A stretch of 64,000 nt of DNA from Oscillospiraceae bacterium (lineage in GTDB: Bacteria; Bacillota; Clostridia; Oscillospirales; Ruminococcaceae): contig JAFUNR010000010.1 in assembly GCA_017472965.1 (NCBI GenBank), positions 164,450 to 228,449 on the forward strand, read 5' to 3'. Both the position numbers and the translations under genes were made by a program. The notes below the pieces were generated by a model. The model had not been told where the DNA came from. It saw nothing but the letters and a program-made list of their open reading frames with translations, and made no database searches. Shown here piece after piece: positions 4,685 through 32,883 of this stretch (position 1 is the stretch's first letter; each line of letters begins with the position of its first letter).

Positions 4685-4713
4685 TTGACATTCGACCAAA
4701 ACAGGTATATAAT
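4685..4713 (+). promoter_or_regulatory. consensus sigma-A promoter of the serine operon
   Basis: TTGACA at 4685-4690 and TATAAT at 4708-4713 are both perfect consensus hexamers with a 17-base spacer. Transcription would start near 4720, about 28 bases before the leader peptide. Such a strong promoter fits control by premature termination downstream rather than by activation. Confidence 0.9.
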
Positions 4714-4747
4714 GCCAAGTAAATTCTTCCCCGAAAGGAAAACGACC

Positions 4748-4864
4748 ATGACTGCTGTCTGTTTCAAAAAGTCATCGTCCCGATCTTGCGGCGCTGCTTC
4801 GGCTGCGTCTTGCTGCGGTGTGATGCTTTTGCACGAAAGGGCGTTTTCCATTCGTACACCTTGA
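4748..4864 (+). CDS. serine-rich leader peptide of the serCA operon (attenuation candidate)
   Basis: A 38-codon ORF starting at ATG 4748 with an AAAGGA ribosome site about 9 bases upstream and ending at TGA 4862-4864. Residues 9-23 read SSSRSCGAASAASCC: six of the seven serines fall within 13 codons, and four cysteines occur in the peptide. It lies between a consensus promoter and an intrinsic terminator, and the next genes are serC and serA. This is the arrangement of amino-acid operon leader peptides in which ribosome stalling at scarce aminoacyl-tRNA prevents termination. Codons 19-23 (bases 4803-4815) can pair over 13 positions, including G-U pairs, with the 5' arm of the terminator (4898-4910). 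The regulatory role is inferred; no T-box consensus was recognised here. Confidence 0.75.
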   Translation: MTAVCFKKSSSRSCGAASAASCCGVMLLHERAFSIRTP

Positions 4865-4898
4865 CTCGATTCCGGGTCATCGTTCACCACATCCATAC

Positions 4899-4942
4899 AG
4901 CAGGGTGCAGGCGATTGTTCCTGTAGCCTGCTTTTTGTTTTT
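4899..4942 (+). terminator. attenuator terminator before serC
   Basis: The stem is AGCAGG-g-TGCAGG paired with CCTGTA-g-CCTGCT around an 8-base loop. It is followed by TTTT-G-TTTTT, ending about 45 bases before serC. It lies inside the 5' leader, between the leader-peptide stop and the serC ribosome site. The 5' arm is also complementary to the serine/cysteine codons of the leader, giving mutually exclusive structures. Confidence 0.82.
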
Positions 4943-4987
4943 CACAATGCATAAATATTGGTGATCACATATTAGGAGGAAACTGTT

Positions 4988-6076
4988 ATGGATCGCGTTT
5001 ACAATTTCTCTGCCGGCCCGTCGATGCTTCCGCTGGAGGTATTGGAAAAAGCGCAGAAGGAGCTGCTGAATTACAATGGCTGCGGCTCCAGCGTGCTGGA
5101 AATGAGCCATCGCTCCAAGCCGTTTGAAGCCATCGTGAATAACGCTGAAGCCACGCTGCGGCGGATCATGCACATTCCCGATGAGTATGCAGTGCTGTTT
5201 TTGCAGGGCGGTGCCTCGCTTCAGTTTTCCATGGTTCCGATGAACCTGACTGCGCAGGGTGCTACGACCGCCTATGCCGTGACCGGACAGTTTGCCAAAA
5301 AGGCATGGGAAGAAGGTGCCCGCTGGGGCAACGCCGTGGCAGTGACCAATGGCAAAATCGACAATTTTGCCGCCATTCCCGCTGTCACGCCCGAGCTCAT
5401 CCCGCAGGATGCCGCCTATCTGCACATCACCGGTAATAACACGGTATACGGCACTGCGTACAACACACTGCCCGACACCGGCAGCGTACCACTGGTGGCA
5501 GACTGGTCCTCTGCCATTCTCGGCAAGGTCATCGATGTGAAAAAGCACGCGCTGATCTATGCCGGTGCACAGAAAAACATGGGCCCCGCCGGTCTGACTG
5601 TGGTCATCCTGCGCAAGGAGCTTCTGGAGCGCACATTGGATCCCATCGTGCCCACCATGCTGCAGTATGCCATCCATGCAGACAAGGGCTCCATGTACAA
5701 CACCCCGCCCTGCTTCTCCATTTACATGGCAGGCCTGGTATTTGAGTGGGTGGAGAAAAATGGCGGCGTAGAGGCCATGGAGCAGCGCAATGCCGCCCGT
5801 GCCGCCGCACTGTACAAAGCACTGGAGAGTTGTGATCATTTCCGTCCCCTGGCAGCAAAAAAGGATCGTTCCATTATGAATGTGACCTTTACGCTGGATA
5901 CGCCTGAGATGACTGCAGAGTTCCTCGCCATGGCACAGGGACGCGGTCTGACCAGCCTGAAAGGCTATCGCACTGTGGGTGGCTGCCGTGCATCGCTGTA
6001 CAACGGTATGCCGGACGAAGGTGTCGCTGCGCTGATCGACTGTATCTGCGCATTTGAGATCGGCAAGCGCACCTGA
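4988..6076 (+). CDS. serC: phosphoserine aminotransferase
   Basis: A 362-residue PLP enzyme converting 3-phosphohydroxypyruvate and glutamate to phosphoserine, the second step of serine synthesis. NFSAGPSMLPLEVLE at the N-terminus is the family signature. The PLP-binding lysine is K196 in AGAQKNMGP, with D172 in VADWSS contacting the cofactor. HRSKPFEAIV near residue 41 binds substrate phosphate. The start has AGGAGG (4975-4980) at good spacing. serA follows after a short gap, so both genes should be read from the attenuated promoter at 4685. No phosphoserine phosphatase (serB) gene is seen in the operon. Confidence 0.96.
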   Translation: MDRVYNFSAGPSMLPLEVLEKAQKELLNYNGCGSSVLEMSHRSKPFEAIVNNAEATLRRIMHIPDEYAVLFLQGGASLQFSMVPMNLTAQGATTAYAVTGQFAKKAWEEGARWGNAVAVTNGKIDNFAAIPAVTPELIPQDAAYLHITGNNTVYGTAYNTLPDTGSVPLVADWSSAILGKVIDVKKHALIYAGAQKNMGPAGLTVVILRKELLERTLDPIVPTMLQYAIHADKGSMYNTPPCFSIYMAGLVFEWVEKNGGVEAMEQRNAARAAALYKALESCDHFRPLAAKKDRSIMNVTFTLDTPEMTAEFLAMAQGRGLTSLKGYRTVGGCRASLYNGMPDEGVAALIDCICAFEIGKRT

Positions 6077-6104: not shown

Positions 6105-7280
6105 ATGTTCACCGTAAAAACCTTCAATGCCATTTCCAATATCATCCGCCAGCATCTGGATGATGAAACCTATACCATTGATGCAGATGCATTTACCTAC
6201 GATGCTGCGCTGGTGCGCAGCGCCGATCTGCATGAGACAGCTTTTCCGCAGCGGCTGCTGGCCATTGCCCGTGCCGGCGCAGGCTACAACAACATCCCGT
6301 TGGAGCGCTGCGCTGAACAGGGCATTGTGGTCTTCAACACCCCCGGTGCCAACGCCAACGCCGTCAAAGAGCTGGTACTGTGCGGTCTGCTGCTGGCCGG
6401 CCGTCAGGTGGTGCCCGCCATCCAGTGGCTGGAAAGCGCCTATGCCAACGGCATCACCGGTCTGGGCGCACTGGCAGAAAAACAGAAGAAATATTTTGTC
6501 GGCCCCGAGCTTGCAGGCAAAAAGCTGGGTGTGGTCGGTCTGGGCGCTATCGGCGTACAGGTGGCCAACGCCGCTGCCAATGGTCTGAACATGGATGTAC
6601 TGGGCTACGATCCCTATATGTCCGTGGAGGCTGCATGGCACCTGACCCGCAGCGTACGCCATGCCGACACACTGGATCAGATCTTTGCCGAGTGCGATTA
6701 CATCACCCTGCATCTGCCGCTGAAGGACAATACCCGCGGTATGGTGAATGCCGAACGACTGGCCGCGATCAAACCCGGGGCCGTGCTGCTGAACTTTGCC
6801 CGCGGCGGGCTGGTGGATACCGATGCACTGCTGGACGCTCTGGCGTGCGGCAAACTGGCACGCTATGTAACAGACTTCCCTGACGATGCGCTGGTGGGCA
6901 AAAAGAATATCATCACCCTGCCTCATCTGGGCGCATCCACACCGGAGAGTGAGGAGAACTGCGCCGCCATGGCTGCAAAGCAGCTGGCGGATTATCTGGA
7001 ACACGGCGATATTGTCAACTCGGTGAATTTCCCTGCCTGCAGTATGCCGCGCACCGGCGCATGGCGGCTGTGCATTCTGAACCGCAATATCACCGGTATG
7101 GTAGGCAAGATCACCGCCGTGCTGGCTGCCGAGGGACACAACATCGACAACATGCTCAACAAGAGCCGCGGCGACTGGGCCTGTACCTTGATCGACACCG
7201 GTACAGAACCCTCTCCCGCCTGCATTGCAGCGCTGGAAGATATTGACGGCGTGGTGCGCGTACGCACACTGGGCCGCTGA
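6105..7280 (+). CDS. serA: D-3-phosphoglycerate dehydrogenase with C-terminal ACT domain
   Basis: A 391-residue NAD-dependent enzyme for the first committed step of serine synthesis. The Rossmann motif VGLGAIG is at residues 144-150; catalytic residues include R233 in NFARGG and H274 in LPHLGAST. Residues 320-391 form an ACT domain, the usual site of feedback inhibition by serine. The short intermediate domain of the long SerA type is absent. The ATG at 6105 is preceded by GGAAAGGAAG. The gene follows serC by 28 bases and is closed by a strong terminator. Confidence 0.95.
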   Translation: MFTVKTFNAISNIIRQHLDDETYTIDADAFTYDAALVRSADLHETAFPQRLLAIARAGAGYNNIPLERCAEQGIVVFNTPGANANAVKELVLCGLLLAGRQVVPAIQWLESAYANGITGLGALAEKQKKYFVGPELAGKKLGVVGLGAIGVQVANAAANGLNMDVLGYDPYMSVEAAWHLTRSVRHADTLDQIFAECDYITLHLPLKDNTRGMVNAERLAAIKPGAVLLNFARGGLVDTDALLDALACGKLARYVTDFPDDALVGKKNIITLPHLGASTPESEENCAAMAAKQLADYLEHGDIVNSVNFPACSMPRTGAWRLCILNRNITGMVGKITAVLAAEGHNIDNMLNKSRGDWACTLIDTGTEPSPACIAALEDIDGVVRVRTLGR

Positions 7281-8298: not shown

Positions 8299-8364
8299 TT
8301 TGCATTCTCCTTTTATTCTTTTTTTGATTGCGCTTTTTGCCCACCGGCACTCGCGGATCGGGGC

Positions 8365-8545
8365 AAAAGCTTTTGCTGCACGGATATTCCGACTGGATGC
8401 CTGTGCGTTTCCGGTCTTCTCAGAACAGCTGTTCCAATGACGTTTCCCCGCTGATTGCGGCTGCGGGTCAGAAAACGCTGTTTTTTTGCATCTTACGGCG
8501 ACGGGCTCGTACAGGCTTTTCACCTGTTTCCCCATACAGCAAAAA
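8365..8545 (-). promoter_or_regulatory. cobalamin riboswitch
   Basis: On the minus strand the leader reads GGGGAAACAGGTGAAAAGCC, then ACGAGCCCGTCGCCGTAAGA. This fits the conserved GGGAA / GGTGNAAA / CCCGCNNCTGTAA core of cobalamin riboswitches. About 120 bases further on comes AGTCGGAATATCCGTG, matching the B12-box hairpin. Downstream, GCAAAAG-CTTTTGC (8363-8376) and an alternative pairing of CTTTTGCCC with GGGCAAAAAG share the same segment, so they could form a switching platform. No U-run follows, so control may be translational. The stretch between this element and the lipoprotein start holds no gene. Confidence 0.82.
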
Positions 8546-8587
8546 CAGTATAGCACATTGTTTTTGAAAATGCAATGTGCTATACTG
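8546..8587. promoter_or_regulatory. divergent promoter pair on a perfect 15-bp inverted repeat
   Basis: CAGTATAGCACATTG (8546-8560) and CAATGTGCTATACTG (8573-8587) are exact reverse complements with a 12-base spacer. Each arm supplies a -10 (TATACT) for one direction and the start of the -35 of the other. The plus strand reads TTGTTT-N17-TATACT toward the acetyltransferase. The minus strand reads TTGCAT-N17-TATACT toward the riboswitch. The two promoters overlap face to face. Confidence 0.75.
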
Positions 8588-29453: not shown

Positions 29454-29642
29454 ATGGCAAAATGCGATGTTTGTGGAAAGGGCGTTACCTTCGGTATTAA
29501 GGTTTCCCATTCCCATCGGCGTTCTAACAGAACTTGGAAACCGAATGTTGTCCGGGTCAAGGCGATTGTGGACGGTAGCCCCCGTTATATCCACGCCTGC
29601 ACCCGTTGCCTGCGTTCCGGTAAGGTCACTCGTGCTATCTGA
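29454..29642 (+). CDS. rpmB: ribosomal protein L28
   Basis: A 62-residue large-subunit protein. AKCDVCGKG (CxxC) and CTRCLRSGKV (CxxC) form the zinc-binding version of L28; SHSHRRSNRTWKPNV is the conserved rRNA-binding stretch. AAGGAGGT lies 9 bases before the ATG at 29454. It is a monocistronic gene with its own promoter and terminator. Confidence 0.97.
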   Translation: MAKCDVCGKGVTFGIKVSHSHRRSNRTWKPNVVRVKAIVDGSPRYIHACTRCLRSGKVTRAI

Positions 29643-29657
29643 GTTTGAAGAAATCAT

Positions 29658-29692
29658 GGAGTTGATGTGAAAGCATCAGCTCCTTTTTTCTT
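29658..29692 (+). terminator. terminator of rpmB
   Basis: GGAGTTGATG pairs with CATCAGCTCC (one G-T pair), followed by TTTTTTCTTTT. Confidence 0.9.
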
Positions 29693-29748
29693 TTATCCGC
29701 CAGCCTGCTCCTGACTGTTTCGCGCGGCACAAATCGATTTTTCACAGG

Positions 29749-29798
29749 AAAGCAAAAGCGATACCCGATCACATCCGCCGGGTATCGCTTTTGCTTTT
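29749..29798. terminator. terminator after the U32-like gene (bidirectional)
   Basis: AAAGCAAAAGCGATACCCG pairs with a matching CGGGTATCGCTTTTGC arm around a 9-10-base loop; T/A-runs lie at both ends. It lies 14 bases before the stop of the minus-strand gene. Confidence 0.85.
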
Positions 29799-29811
29799 GT
29801 ATGTGTCACCA

Positions 29812-30840
29812 TCAGAAACGCGGTTCTGTCAGTACAGCTTCGGCCACGCAGGCGCAGTACCCGCAGGCAGCGCAGTTTTTATCGCACTGCGAAGTCTTTT
29901 CAAACCAATCCTTTGGAAAAAGCGTGTTGTCCAGAATTTTCCCGCGGAAAAGCGTAGAATAGGACGGCTCCGTCAGATCCATCATATTGCCCGTAAAGCG
30001 TCCCCTTGCGTAAGCGGCCACCACCATGCGCGGACGCTGATGCATCCGCGTGGCAAGCTTCGCCTCTGCAAAATACGGCTCGTAATGAACAATATCCTCC
30101 GGACGAATCCATGTGCTGTGCAGATAGTTTTCCGCAGCCTTTTTCTGCGGCAGACCGCTGAGATAGTCCCAGCAGGGGCTGGGAAACCGCAGCGGCATAT
30201 TCTTTTGTTCCACGATCCCGCTTTCATGCGCCACCATGTTGTCATGAAAGGTTTGGAATGCACAGTACCGCATACAACCGCTGTTCACCAGTAAGTGCAG
30301 TGTTTTGTTCCTGCCGTCACACCATTGCTTCAGGGTGCGGATCGCGGCAAAATCACGGTTTTTTTCCCGCTGCATATAGTAGCCGTCAAAGCATTCCGCA
30401 AGCTGTTCCATCGCATCTACGGTGCCGACGCGCATGTTTACCGATGCGCGAACCGCAATATCTGCACCGAATTCCTGTTTCAGAATATAAGCCAGAAAGG
30501 GCGATGCTGTTGTCACGCTGCCGATATCCAGTTCTCTTTTCAGTTTATCCGCCGCGGACAGGATCCTGTCCCGCGTTTTCTGCGAGACCGCCTGTTCCCC
30601 GTAACAGTTGGCATTGAGCAAGAGTGCAAGCCGGATACCCAGTGCGCGGATCTCTTTCAGCTCGGCAAGCTGAAAGGACTCCACCTCACCCTTTTCGTCT
30701 GCACCGCATAAGGCCGAACGCCCGCTTGGTTCGTTTCCCCATGGGAAATAGACCTCCGAAACCGCAGCTGCATGATCGCGGCAGATATCAAGGGTGGAAT
30801 CCAGTTCGTCCGGCAGCTGATAGCCAATGGAAAATTTCAT
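29812..30840 (-). CDS. U32-peptidase-like Fe-S protein
   Basis: A 342-residue protein resembling the U32 family, whose studied members (for example UbiU/UbiV, RlhA, YegQ relatives) bind a 4Fe-4S cluster and act in hydroxylation or RNA modification rather than proteolysis. The middle part contains the U32-like LLVNSGCMRYCAFQTFHDN (Cys-x3-Cys near residue 190). The C-terminus has a second cysteine group, CDKNCAACGYCACV. GGTGATG precedes the ATG. It follows the QueG-like Fe-S gene by 14 bases, so the two form an operon. No precise function can be given. Confidence 0.6.
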   Translation of the reverse strand: MKFSIGYQLPDELDSTLDICRDHAAAVSEVYFPWGNEPSGRSALCGADEKGEVESFQLAELKEIRALGIRLALLLNANCYGEQAVSQKTRDRILSAADKLKRELDIGSVTTASPFLAYILKQEFGADIAVRASVNMRVGTVDAMEQLAECFDGYYMQREKNRDFAAIRTLKQWCDGRNKTLHLLVNSGCMRYCAFQTFHDNMVAHESGIVEQKNMPLRFPSPCWDYLSGLPQKKAAENYLHSTWIRPEDIVHYEPYFAEAKLATRMHQRPRMVVAAYARGRFTGNMMDLTEPSYSTLFRGKILDNTLFPKDWFEKTSQCDKNCAACGYCACVAEAVLTEPRF

Positions 30841-31976: not shown

Positions 31977-32834
31977 TCAAATCTGACACAAAATATATTT
32001 GGACGGAGAAATGCCAAAGTGATTTTTAAAACAGGTGGAAAAATGTTTGCTGTTGGAAAAGCCTGTTTTTACAGCAATTTCTTCCATAGTCATCCCCTTT
32101 GCTTCCAGCAGCTGAAGTGCTTGTCGCAAACGGTAATCGATCAGATACTGATGAAAACTGACACCCGCAGCTGCTTTCATCGTCCGGTTGATATACGTGG
32201 GATGGTAATGCAGTGCGGCAGCAGCAGTCTCCAGTGTGATCTTCTGCTCATAATTTTCCTGTACATAGGTCATTACCCTGTTTGCAAGCAGAAACGATTT
32301 TTGGTTCTTTTCCTGCGAACAACGCACCCGATCGACCAGCAGGCCGATCAGTTCCTTCAGCAGACCCGACAACTGGATCTGATTGGGCCTGACACCTGTA
32401 AAATACACTTTATACAGCGCACGCAGAAGCTCCTCCGCTTCGAAAAAGCCTTTGAGCACGATCGCTTCGCTGCCGCAGCCGAGTGTGGAAAGCTCCGCTT
32501 TTTCCAGCACATTTTCTGCAACAAAGCATTCCTCTTCCACAGAGAGTACAGGAGAACATACATCCGCACGGTTTTGCGTCCAGTCAAAATTCACGACAAA
32601 GCAGGTCTGCACAGGGCTGCAGCGGACGGAAAACGGCGTTCCCGGAGCAAATATGAAAAGATCGCCGACTTCCGCCGTACAGATTTCTTCGCCACATACC
32701 ACTTCGCCGCAGCCATCGGCAATATAGACAAGCCTGTAATCATAGGCACAATAGCGGGCAGTCTGATACAATCCCGTGCCGCGGCCGACACAGCGTACAA
32801 AGGGATTGACCGCCTCTTCCGTTATTTTCAGCAT
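31977..32834 (-). CDS. AraC family regulator with cupin-type sensor
   Basis: A 285-residue regulator. The N-terminal half contains a beta-rich AraC cupin (GDLFIFAPGTPFSVRCSP). The C-terminal half has two helix-turn-helix units, LETAAAALHYHPTYINRTMK and EEIAVKTGFSNSKHFSTCFKNHFGISPSKY (first part quoted). AGGAGG lies just before the ATG. It follows the GH106-like gene by 49 bases on the same strand and probably controls the GH51/GH106-like operon. Confidence 0.88.
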   Translation of the reverse strand: MLKITEEAVNPFVRCVGRGTGLYQTARYCAYDYRLVYIADGCGEVVCGEEICTAEVGDLFIFAPGTPFSVRCSPVQTCFVVNFDWTQNRADVCSPVLSVEEECFVAENVLEKAELSTLGCGSEAIVLKGFFEAEELLRALYKVYFTGVRPNQIQLSGLLKELIGLLVDRVRCSQEKNQKSFLLANRVMTYVQENYEQKITLETAAAALHYHPTYINRTMKAAAGVSFHQYLIDYRLRQALQLLEAKGMTMEEIAVKTGFSNSKHFSTCFKNHFGISPSKYILCQI

Positions 32835-32883
32835 ATTCCCTCCTGATCGGCCTTCCGGTCATCCCTTCCTATCCCGGCGCAGC

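Follow-up and report, generated by a model that had tools for sequence, protein, structure and literature searches.

Introduction

The classical attenuators are the trp, his, thr and leu leaders of enteric bacteria. As described for these systems (PMC1183508), an attenuator comprises a promoter, a short open reading frame (ORF) that contains codons for the amino acid made by the operon, a terminator with a competing antiterminator, and the biosynthetic operon itself. The leader analyzed here, which precedes serC and serA (serCA) in a gut bacterium, has the same layout, the antiterminator being predicted, but differs from the enteric leaders in its Ser/Cys specificity, its control codons (9-14 of a 30-38-codon ORF) and its clostridial host. 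This leader is very probably a real ribosome-mediated Ser/Cys transcription attenuator, narrow in distribution, a reading to which we assign a probability of roughly 0.8.

Leader-peptide attenuation has been reported in Firmicutes for other amino acids. In Bacillus, histidine leader-peptide attenuators are predicted for hisS*/hisZ, while other hisS genes are described as having a T-box; these leaders resemble the serCA leader in being predicted cases of leader-peptide attenuation in Firmicutes, and differ from it in amino acid, genes and lineage (PMC2965389). The ilv-leu operon of Staphylococcus aureus is reported to have a Leu-rich attenuator peptide, supported by suppressor mutations. Here too a leader peptide and a terminator precede a biosynthetic operon, although the codons are Leu/Ile and the operon is a different one (PMC5794164). 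The first-pass annotation of this DNA, made from sequence alone, had called a serine leader-peptide attenuator in Clostridia unusual; this assessment stands, with the qualification that His and Leu examples from Firmicutes are in print. Ribosome-mediated attenuation has also been reported for bmrCD of Bacillus subtilis (PMC4191407).

The same genes are controlled by other means elsewhere. In Paenibacillus, serA is reported to be under the control of a serine T-box, and one is predicted for serC of Clostridium thermocellum; like the proposed serCA attenuator, these elements end transcription early in a serine-dependent way ahead of serA or serC in Firmicutes, but the tRNA binds the RNA directly, whereas the serCA leader has no T-box match (PMC8002221). 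The alphaproteobacterial serC RNA (RF00517), a short two-hairpin element proposed to block ribosome binding, also lies before serC-serA, and the serCA leader has no match to it (PMC1273637). Cysteine codons in short ORFs, as in the serCA leader, are described in other phyla and before other genes: the cys operons of Mycobacterium carry Cys-codon leader peptides reported to lack obvious terminators (PMC1262725), and the Rhodobacterales cysS motif uORFC-8-2 is a Cys-codon leader (PMC8632094). No serine leader-peptide attenuator was recognized in the open-licence literature searched. We class the serCA leader as a known mechanism with a new amino acid specificity in a new lineage.

Anatomy of the serCA leader

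The features of the locus are collected in Table 1, with positions counted in the window, i.e., the whole stretch of 64,000 nucleotides that was analyzed. The promoter, the ORF with its ribosome site, the terminator, the downstream genes and the 13-position alternative pairing were all recovered as the first-pass annotation had listed them, the terminator stem beginning one base inside the 4899 given there.

Table 1. Positions of the leader features and the genes that follow them in the window.
Feature	Position	Strand	Basis
Promoter of the leader/serCA transcript	4685..4713	+	TTGACA-17-TATAAT, 12/12 consensus matches; TTGACA aligned in 6/6 leaders
Shine-Dalgarno-like AAAGGA of the leader ORF	4734..4739	+	Direct reading; AAAGGA or AAGGGG aligned in five relatives
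Leader-peptide ORF, 38 codons, MTAVCFKKSSSRSCGAASAASCCGVMLLHERAFSIRTP	4748..4864	+	ATG 4748 to TGA 4864; counterparts in five relatives
Control codons 9-14, TCA TCG TCC CGA TCT TGC (SSSRSC)	4772..4789	+	Ser 9 and 10 in 6/6 leaders
Predicted 1:2-like hairpin after the control codons	4788..4813	+	Predicted fold; 3' arm overlaps antiterminator 5' arm
Antiterminator 5' arm (predicted)	4803..4815	+	13 consecutive pairs with 4898-4910; duplex p 0.017 against shuffles
Antiterminator 3' arm (predicted)	4898..4910	+	Overlaps terminator 5' arm
Intrinsic terminator	4900..4942	+	Stem 4900-4931, U tract 4932-4942; hairpin and T-rich tail before serC in 6/6 leaders
serC, phosphoserine transaminase	4988..6076	+	NCBIfam NF003764 and TIGR01364 above cut-off
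serA-like phosphoglycerate dehydrogenase	6105..7280	+	Starts 28 bases after serC; homologue directly after serC in 5/5 relatives

The promoter is the only promoter-like site between 4480 and 5100 (shuffled sequences contain 0.4 on average), and the divergent upstream neighbor of the leader is an HPr kinase gene. The terminator stem has a predicted energy of -18.3 kcal/mol and is followed by TTTTTGTTTTT. For the second gene of the operon, the best NCBIfam model is phosphoglycerate dehydrogenase (E 2.4e-70), whose cut-off of 454 bits is not reached (237.8); the protein is 391 residues long and the model 525, and two Pfam 2-Hacid_dh domains pass their cut-off.

Conservation and distribution

Of 396 genomes searched in the family, 320 yielded a SerC. 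Ranked by E-value, the top six, namely the window's own (leader L001) and five that are 66-76% identical (L002-L006), all carry the leader arrangement: a TTGACA promoter, an AAAGGA or AAGGGG site, an ORF, a terminator with a T-rich tail, serC and serA. Two genera of the family account for these carriers: the window's own, with both of its genomes, and the genus whose SerC is next most similar, with four of its five; the remaining genome of the latter had no serC match. As L003, L004 and L006 are close relatives, the six loci amount to fewer than six independent cases. The predicted peptides, encoded by ORFs of 30-38 codons, are MTAVCFKKSSSRSCGAASAASCCGVMLLHERAFSIRTP (L001), MAMAICKMSSSCSSDTACSVCGCFVMRCLLQMLNRLCK (L002), MKLCFTAISSSCCSGTSAVPALGVRFFRND (L003), MKVRFYAISSSCCSDTSSVPALGVRFFHND (L004), MRFANCFTSSCWRGTSGVSVIGVRKSFRCPQLTD (L005) and MKFRIAAISSSCCSDTSLVPALGVRFFRND (L006). 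Besides the start, Ser 9 and 10 are the only codons common to all. The conservation of ORF and Ser codons among close relatives, the absence of which the first-pass annotation had held would speak against an attenuator, is thus present in 6/6 loci.

The arrangement is absent from the next two loci in line, L007 (SerC 67% identical) and L008 (65%), even though the SerC of L007 is as similar to that of the window as the SerC of L006 is (67 versus 66%). About 70-100 bases before serC, L007 has a terminator-like hairpin and a T run right after a TATAAT-like box, with no leader ORF.

A rule-based scan covered the 600 bases before serC at 109 loci (108 of the regions distinct, six falling short of that length) and called for an ORF with a ribosome site, at least three Ser in five codons and a terminator at most 100 bases from serC. 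Six loci were returned: L001, L002, L003, L004, L006 and L091. L005 fails the Ser rule. L091 was rejected as a chance hit, since its GTG ORF, 68 codons long, stops 254 bases short of serC and ahead of a promoter-like sequence. The Ser/Cys-rich ORF of another locus (L096) was likewise set aside; it lacks a terminator and overlaps an upstream frame of 403 codons. A profile built on the leader peptides finds these six by construction, so its use is negative, and it gave no convincing seventh leader in the 396 family genomes. Although 236 of the 396 have a match of some kind when E-values up to 1 are allowed, the E-value rises from 1e-12 for the sixth place to 1.5e-4 for the next, and the rest were taken as chance and not inspected individually. 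Among 394 genomes of the order, a sample in which the other five carriers would have matched if drawn, only the window's own genome matched at E 1e-5. Judged from these genomes, which are samples of larger groups, the distribution of the leader looks narrow.

Proposed mechanism

The attenuator would read the charging of the UCN-reading tRNA-Ser and of tRNA-Cys. When serine is plentiful, the lead ribosome would clear the Ser/Cys run and cover the distal part of the ORF, which would block the antiterminator and let the terminator before serC fold. When serine, and hence cysteine, is scarce, the ribosome would stall at codons 9-14; the distal ORF could then pair with the 5' arm of the terminator, and transcription would continue into serC-serA. 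The sequences show the anatomy, the conservation and the codon choice, and the folds an alternative pairing in silico; we infer that the leader is translated, that ribosomes stall in it, that read-through follows and that serine is the physiological signal.

A report that RNA polymerase outruns the ribosome in B. subtilis (PMC9226507) would weigh against such a mechanism unless polymerase pauses in the leader. The odds tilt slightly towards the fuller proposal that the leader is a composite sensor, with UCN Ser codons followed by Cys codons in one peptide. Such a sensor would be the first ribosome-mediated attenuator specific for serine, would operate in a clostridial lineage that elsewhere uses T-boxes, and so would be a sign of transcription-translation coupling at least in the leader. 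If the attenuator is real, serine (with cysteine) joins the few amino acids that leader-peptide attenuators are known to sense, and such sensing occurs in a group thought to rely on T-boxes. Because the attenuator needs a ribosome that keeps pace with RNA polymerase, coupling in Clostridia would become directly testable.

Codon choice in the leader ORF

The window's leader has Ser at codons 9, 10, 11, 13, 18, 21 and 34, the first six being those already counted between codons 9 and 21 by the first-pass annotation, and Cys at codons 5, 14, 22 and 23, which agrees with the four it had counted. Given the frequencies in the window's ORFs (Ser 4.9%, Cys 2.5%), the probability of at least seven Ser in 38 codons is 0.002, and that of at least four Cys is 0.015. 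The six leaders contain 34 Ser codons, every one of them TCN and none AGY, while AGT and AGC together make up 28-46% of Ser codons in the ORFs flanking the six loci. The chance of drawing no AGY is about 8e-6 when L001, L002, L004 and L005 are treated as independent, which is too optimistic given their shared ancestry; for single leaders it is 0.017-0.19.

No Ser codon is rarer than TCA (2-8%) in any of the six flanking-ORF samples, but TCA supplies 18 of the 34 leader Ser codons and stands at codon 9 in all six leaders. The window's leader taken by itself has no excess of TCA (1/7 Ser codons, p 0.44). Codon 10 varies only synonymously (TCG/TCA), and codon 11 is TCC or TCT in five leaders and Cys in L005. 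An alternative, structural reason for TCA may be that TCATC can pair with GATGA around the start codon, as seen in the predicted folds of L003 and L004.

In serine-starved B. subtilis, ribosome density is reported to rise at UCN and Cys codons and not at AGC/AGU (PMC3862929). The control codons of the leader are of the kinds slowed there, and serine sensing fits. The UCN-only choice and the placement of Cys after the Ser run, as they appear in the six leaders, are in keeping with this reading; if it is true, the UCN-only choice shows evolution using the codon-specific slow-down profiled in that organism.

In every leader a Cys codon lies within codons 11-14, and the conserved unit is Ser plus Cys, not Ser alone. 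The same observation would also suit a different emphasis, according to which the attenuator is primarily a cysteine sensor, with the Ser codons serving as spacing and serC raised since cysteine is made from serine. L002 has 7 Cys and 6 Ser among its 38 codons, and in the fold model of the window's leader a ribosome waiting at C14 reduces the cost of freeing the terminator 3' arm as much as one at S13. Still, we consider this emphasis unlikely. The universally shared codons are the two Ser codons, Ser outnumbers Cys in the other five leaders, the operon makes serine, and the avoidance of AGY is best explained by serine sensing.

Predicted alternative pairing in the leader RNA

The 13-position helix between the distal ORF and the terminator 5' arm contains three G-U pairs and recurs in the predicted folds. 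The best duplex between ORF segment and terminator arm contains this helix; of 1000 dinucleotide shuffles, 1.7% do as well. The duplex beats shuffles at 0.05 in the window and L002 only; the values for the other leaders are 0.51 (L003), 0.65 (L006), 0.16 (L004) and 0.07 (L005). When ORF segments and terminator arms were cross-paired between species, the diagonal was weak (-18.3 versus -17.0 kcal/mol), and co-evolution of the antiterminator arms was not demonstrated by this comparison.

The predicted hairpin after the Ser run does not stand out from shuffles in the window (p 0.49) or in any other leader (p at least 0.05). A MAFFT alignment was discarded as support for this hairpin, the region being misaligned. 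In a hand-set register of L002-L006, pair 7 reads C-G, A-T and G-C, but pair 5 is a mismatched A-C in two of the leaders, and one leader has G-G at pair 8, so the register does not amount to proof of covariation. Of the conserved Ser codons and compensatory stem changes that the first-pass annotation had proposed to look for, the former were found and the latter were not demonstrated by these comparisons.

Ribosome position was modeled by blocking a footprint at each codon (assumed, as a guess, to reach 11 bases beyond the A-site codon) and folding the RNA downstream. In the window's leader, the equilibrium probability of the terminator falls from 0.98 in free RNA to 0.06 with the ribosome at codons 9 and 10; it is 0.88 at codon 11, 0.25 at codon 12, 0.62 at codon 13 and 0.73 at codon 14, and at least 0.74 from codon 15 on. 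The cost of keeping the terminator 3' arm unpaired, a measure that also counts pairings besides the terminator, is 9.2 kcal/mol in free RNA, 1.0 with the ribosome at codon 13 or 14, and 11-14 from codon 17 on. With the ribosome at codon 9, 10 or 12 the terminator is disfavored at equilibrium, and at codons 13 and 14 its loss costs least, whereas codon 11 departs from this pattern; in this model the stall interval of codons 9-13 proposed earlier is broadly right, and no one codon is singled out.

The relatives behave differently. The cost of freeing the 3' arm with the ribosome at codons 9-13 is below that in free RNA in 6/6 leaders, but in the five relatives the terminator is still favored at equilibrium over these codons (probability 0.75-0.95 in L004 and 0.95-1.0 in the other four), so that any switch in these leaders would need to be kinetic. 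The loss of the terminator at equilibrium in the window alone slightly lowers our confidence in the attenuator.

Early pairing points in that direction in most leaders. With the ribosome at codons 9-13 and the 3' arm still to be transcribed, the probability that its 5' partner pairs with upstream sequence is 0.90 in L001, 0.66-0.69 in L002, 0.81-0.84 in L003, 0.63-0.83 in L004, 0.53-0.68 in L005 and 0.82-0.86 in L006. With the ribosome at the stop codon, the values for L001-L006 are 0.52, 0.17, 0.44, 0.35, 0.67 and 0.53, lower in five of six leaders and no different in L005. For the cost of freeing the 3' arm, the fraction of 150 shuffles of each leader that jointly reach both contrasts (free RNA minus Ser codons and stop codon minus Ser codons) is 0.033, 0, 0.013, 0, 0.053 and 0.007 for L001-L006. 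Taken singly, the stop-codon contrast falls below 0.05 only in L002 and L004 and is absent in L005 (p 0.51), and the free-RNA contrast does so only in L002, L003, L004 and L006. According to this model, a ribosome on the Ser codons favors early antiterminator pairing in most leaders when compared with free RNA or with a ribosome at the stop codon, L005 fitting worst, and the alternative pairing is clear in the window and weaker elsewhere.

In the free-RNA fold of the window's leader, the ribosome site at about 4736-4743 pairs with the distal ORF at 4842-4849 (GGAAAACG/CGTTTTCC). Similar long-range pairing was seen by eye in the folds of L002-L005 and not in that of L006. Such pairing could add termination when the leader is untranslated.

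These folds, together with the terminator that the relatives retain at equilibrium for any ribosome position within codons 9-13, would also suit an ORF that is translated but does not regulate through ribosome position: the leader would fold over its own start, and the terminator would be constitutive or governed by another factor. This is improbable, as it leaves the codon choice and the fixed position of the Ser run without a role, and the dependence on ribosome position jointly exceeds shuffles at 0.05 in five of six leaders.

Peptide divergence

Outside the Ser/Cys run, the leader peptides have little in common, except among the close relatives L003, L004 and L006. L001 and L002, both 38 codons long and alignable without gaps, differ at 28 non-synonymous and 4 synonymous positions of 39 including the stop, and their codon comparison shows no visible coding constraint outside codons 9-11. 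From these sequences, the divergence fits a leader in which the codons matter and the peptide does not, and the Ser/Cys run is the one place where coding constraint shows. A small Ser/Cys-rich protein with a function of its own (e.g., metal binding), placed before serC incidentally, would account for the richness in Cys and for an ORF kept open in six species. We regard such a protein as very improbable: few residues outside the Ser/Cys run are common to both genera, lengths vary from 30 to 38 codons, the changes are mostly non-synonymous, the ORF has no Pfam match, and it always lies directly before serC with a terminator between.

T-boxes and other RNA elements

No Rfam family, including the T-box (RF00230) and the serC RNA (RF00517), reaches its gathering score at 4685-4987, and none does on loci L002-L006. 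Elsewhere in the window's genome the T-box model has 15 matches, 10 of them over the cut-off, which indicates that the organism uses T-boxes but not here. Control of the operon by a serine T-box, a riboswitch or the alphaproteobacterial serC RNA, with the ORF there by chance, is thus scarcely credible despite the Ser T-boxes reported for serA and predicted for serC in other Firmicutes (PMC8002221) and the T-boxes of this very genome. A T-box match in the leader had been named at the outset as evidence that would count against an attenuator. Its absence and the conservation of the ORF in the nearest relatives both lend support to the attenuator.

The genes behind the T-boxes of this genome were read by eye and are presumably pheS, valS, metG, alaS, an ileS-like gene and others. 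An ORF was present at 14 of the 15 loci, and serS, serC or serA was seen behind none of them.

Only one of the 109 serC loci (L078) has a T-box motif with no more than one mismatch in the 600 bases before the gene; there the core motif, with one mismatch, lies 569 bases before serC. Three of the T-box loci in the window's genome (L116, L117 and L122) lie on a single contig, C34; two stand back to back about 175 bases apart (29583-29821 on the minus strand and 29997-30230 on the plus strand), and a weaker third lies at 32596-32845 on the plus strand. In the window itself, a Cobalamin riboswitch aptamer matches at 8362-8568 on the minus strand (48.1 bits against a gathering score of 31.5), and the minus-strand ORFs behind it look, by eye, like a lipoprotein and a membrane protein.
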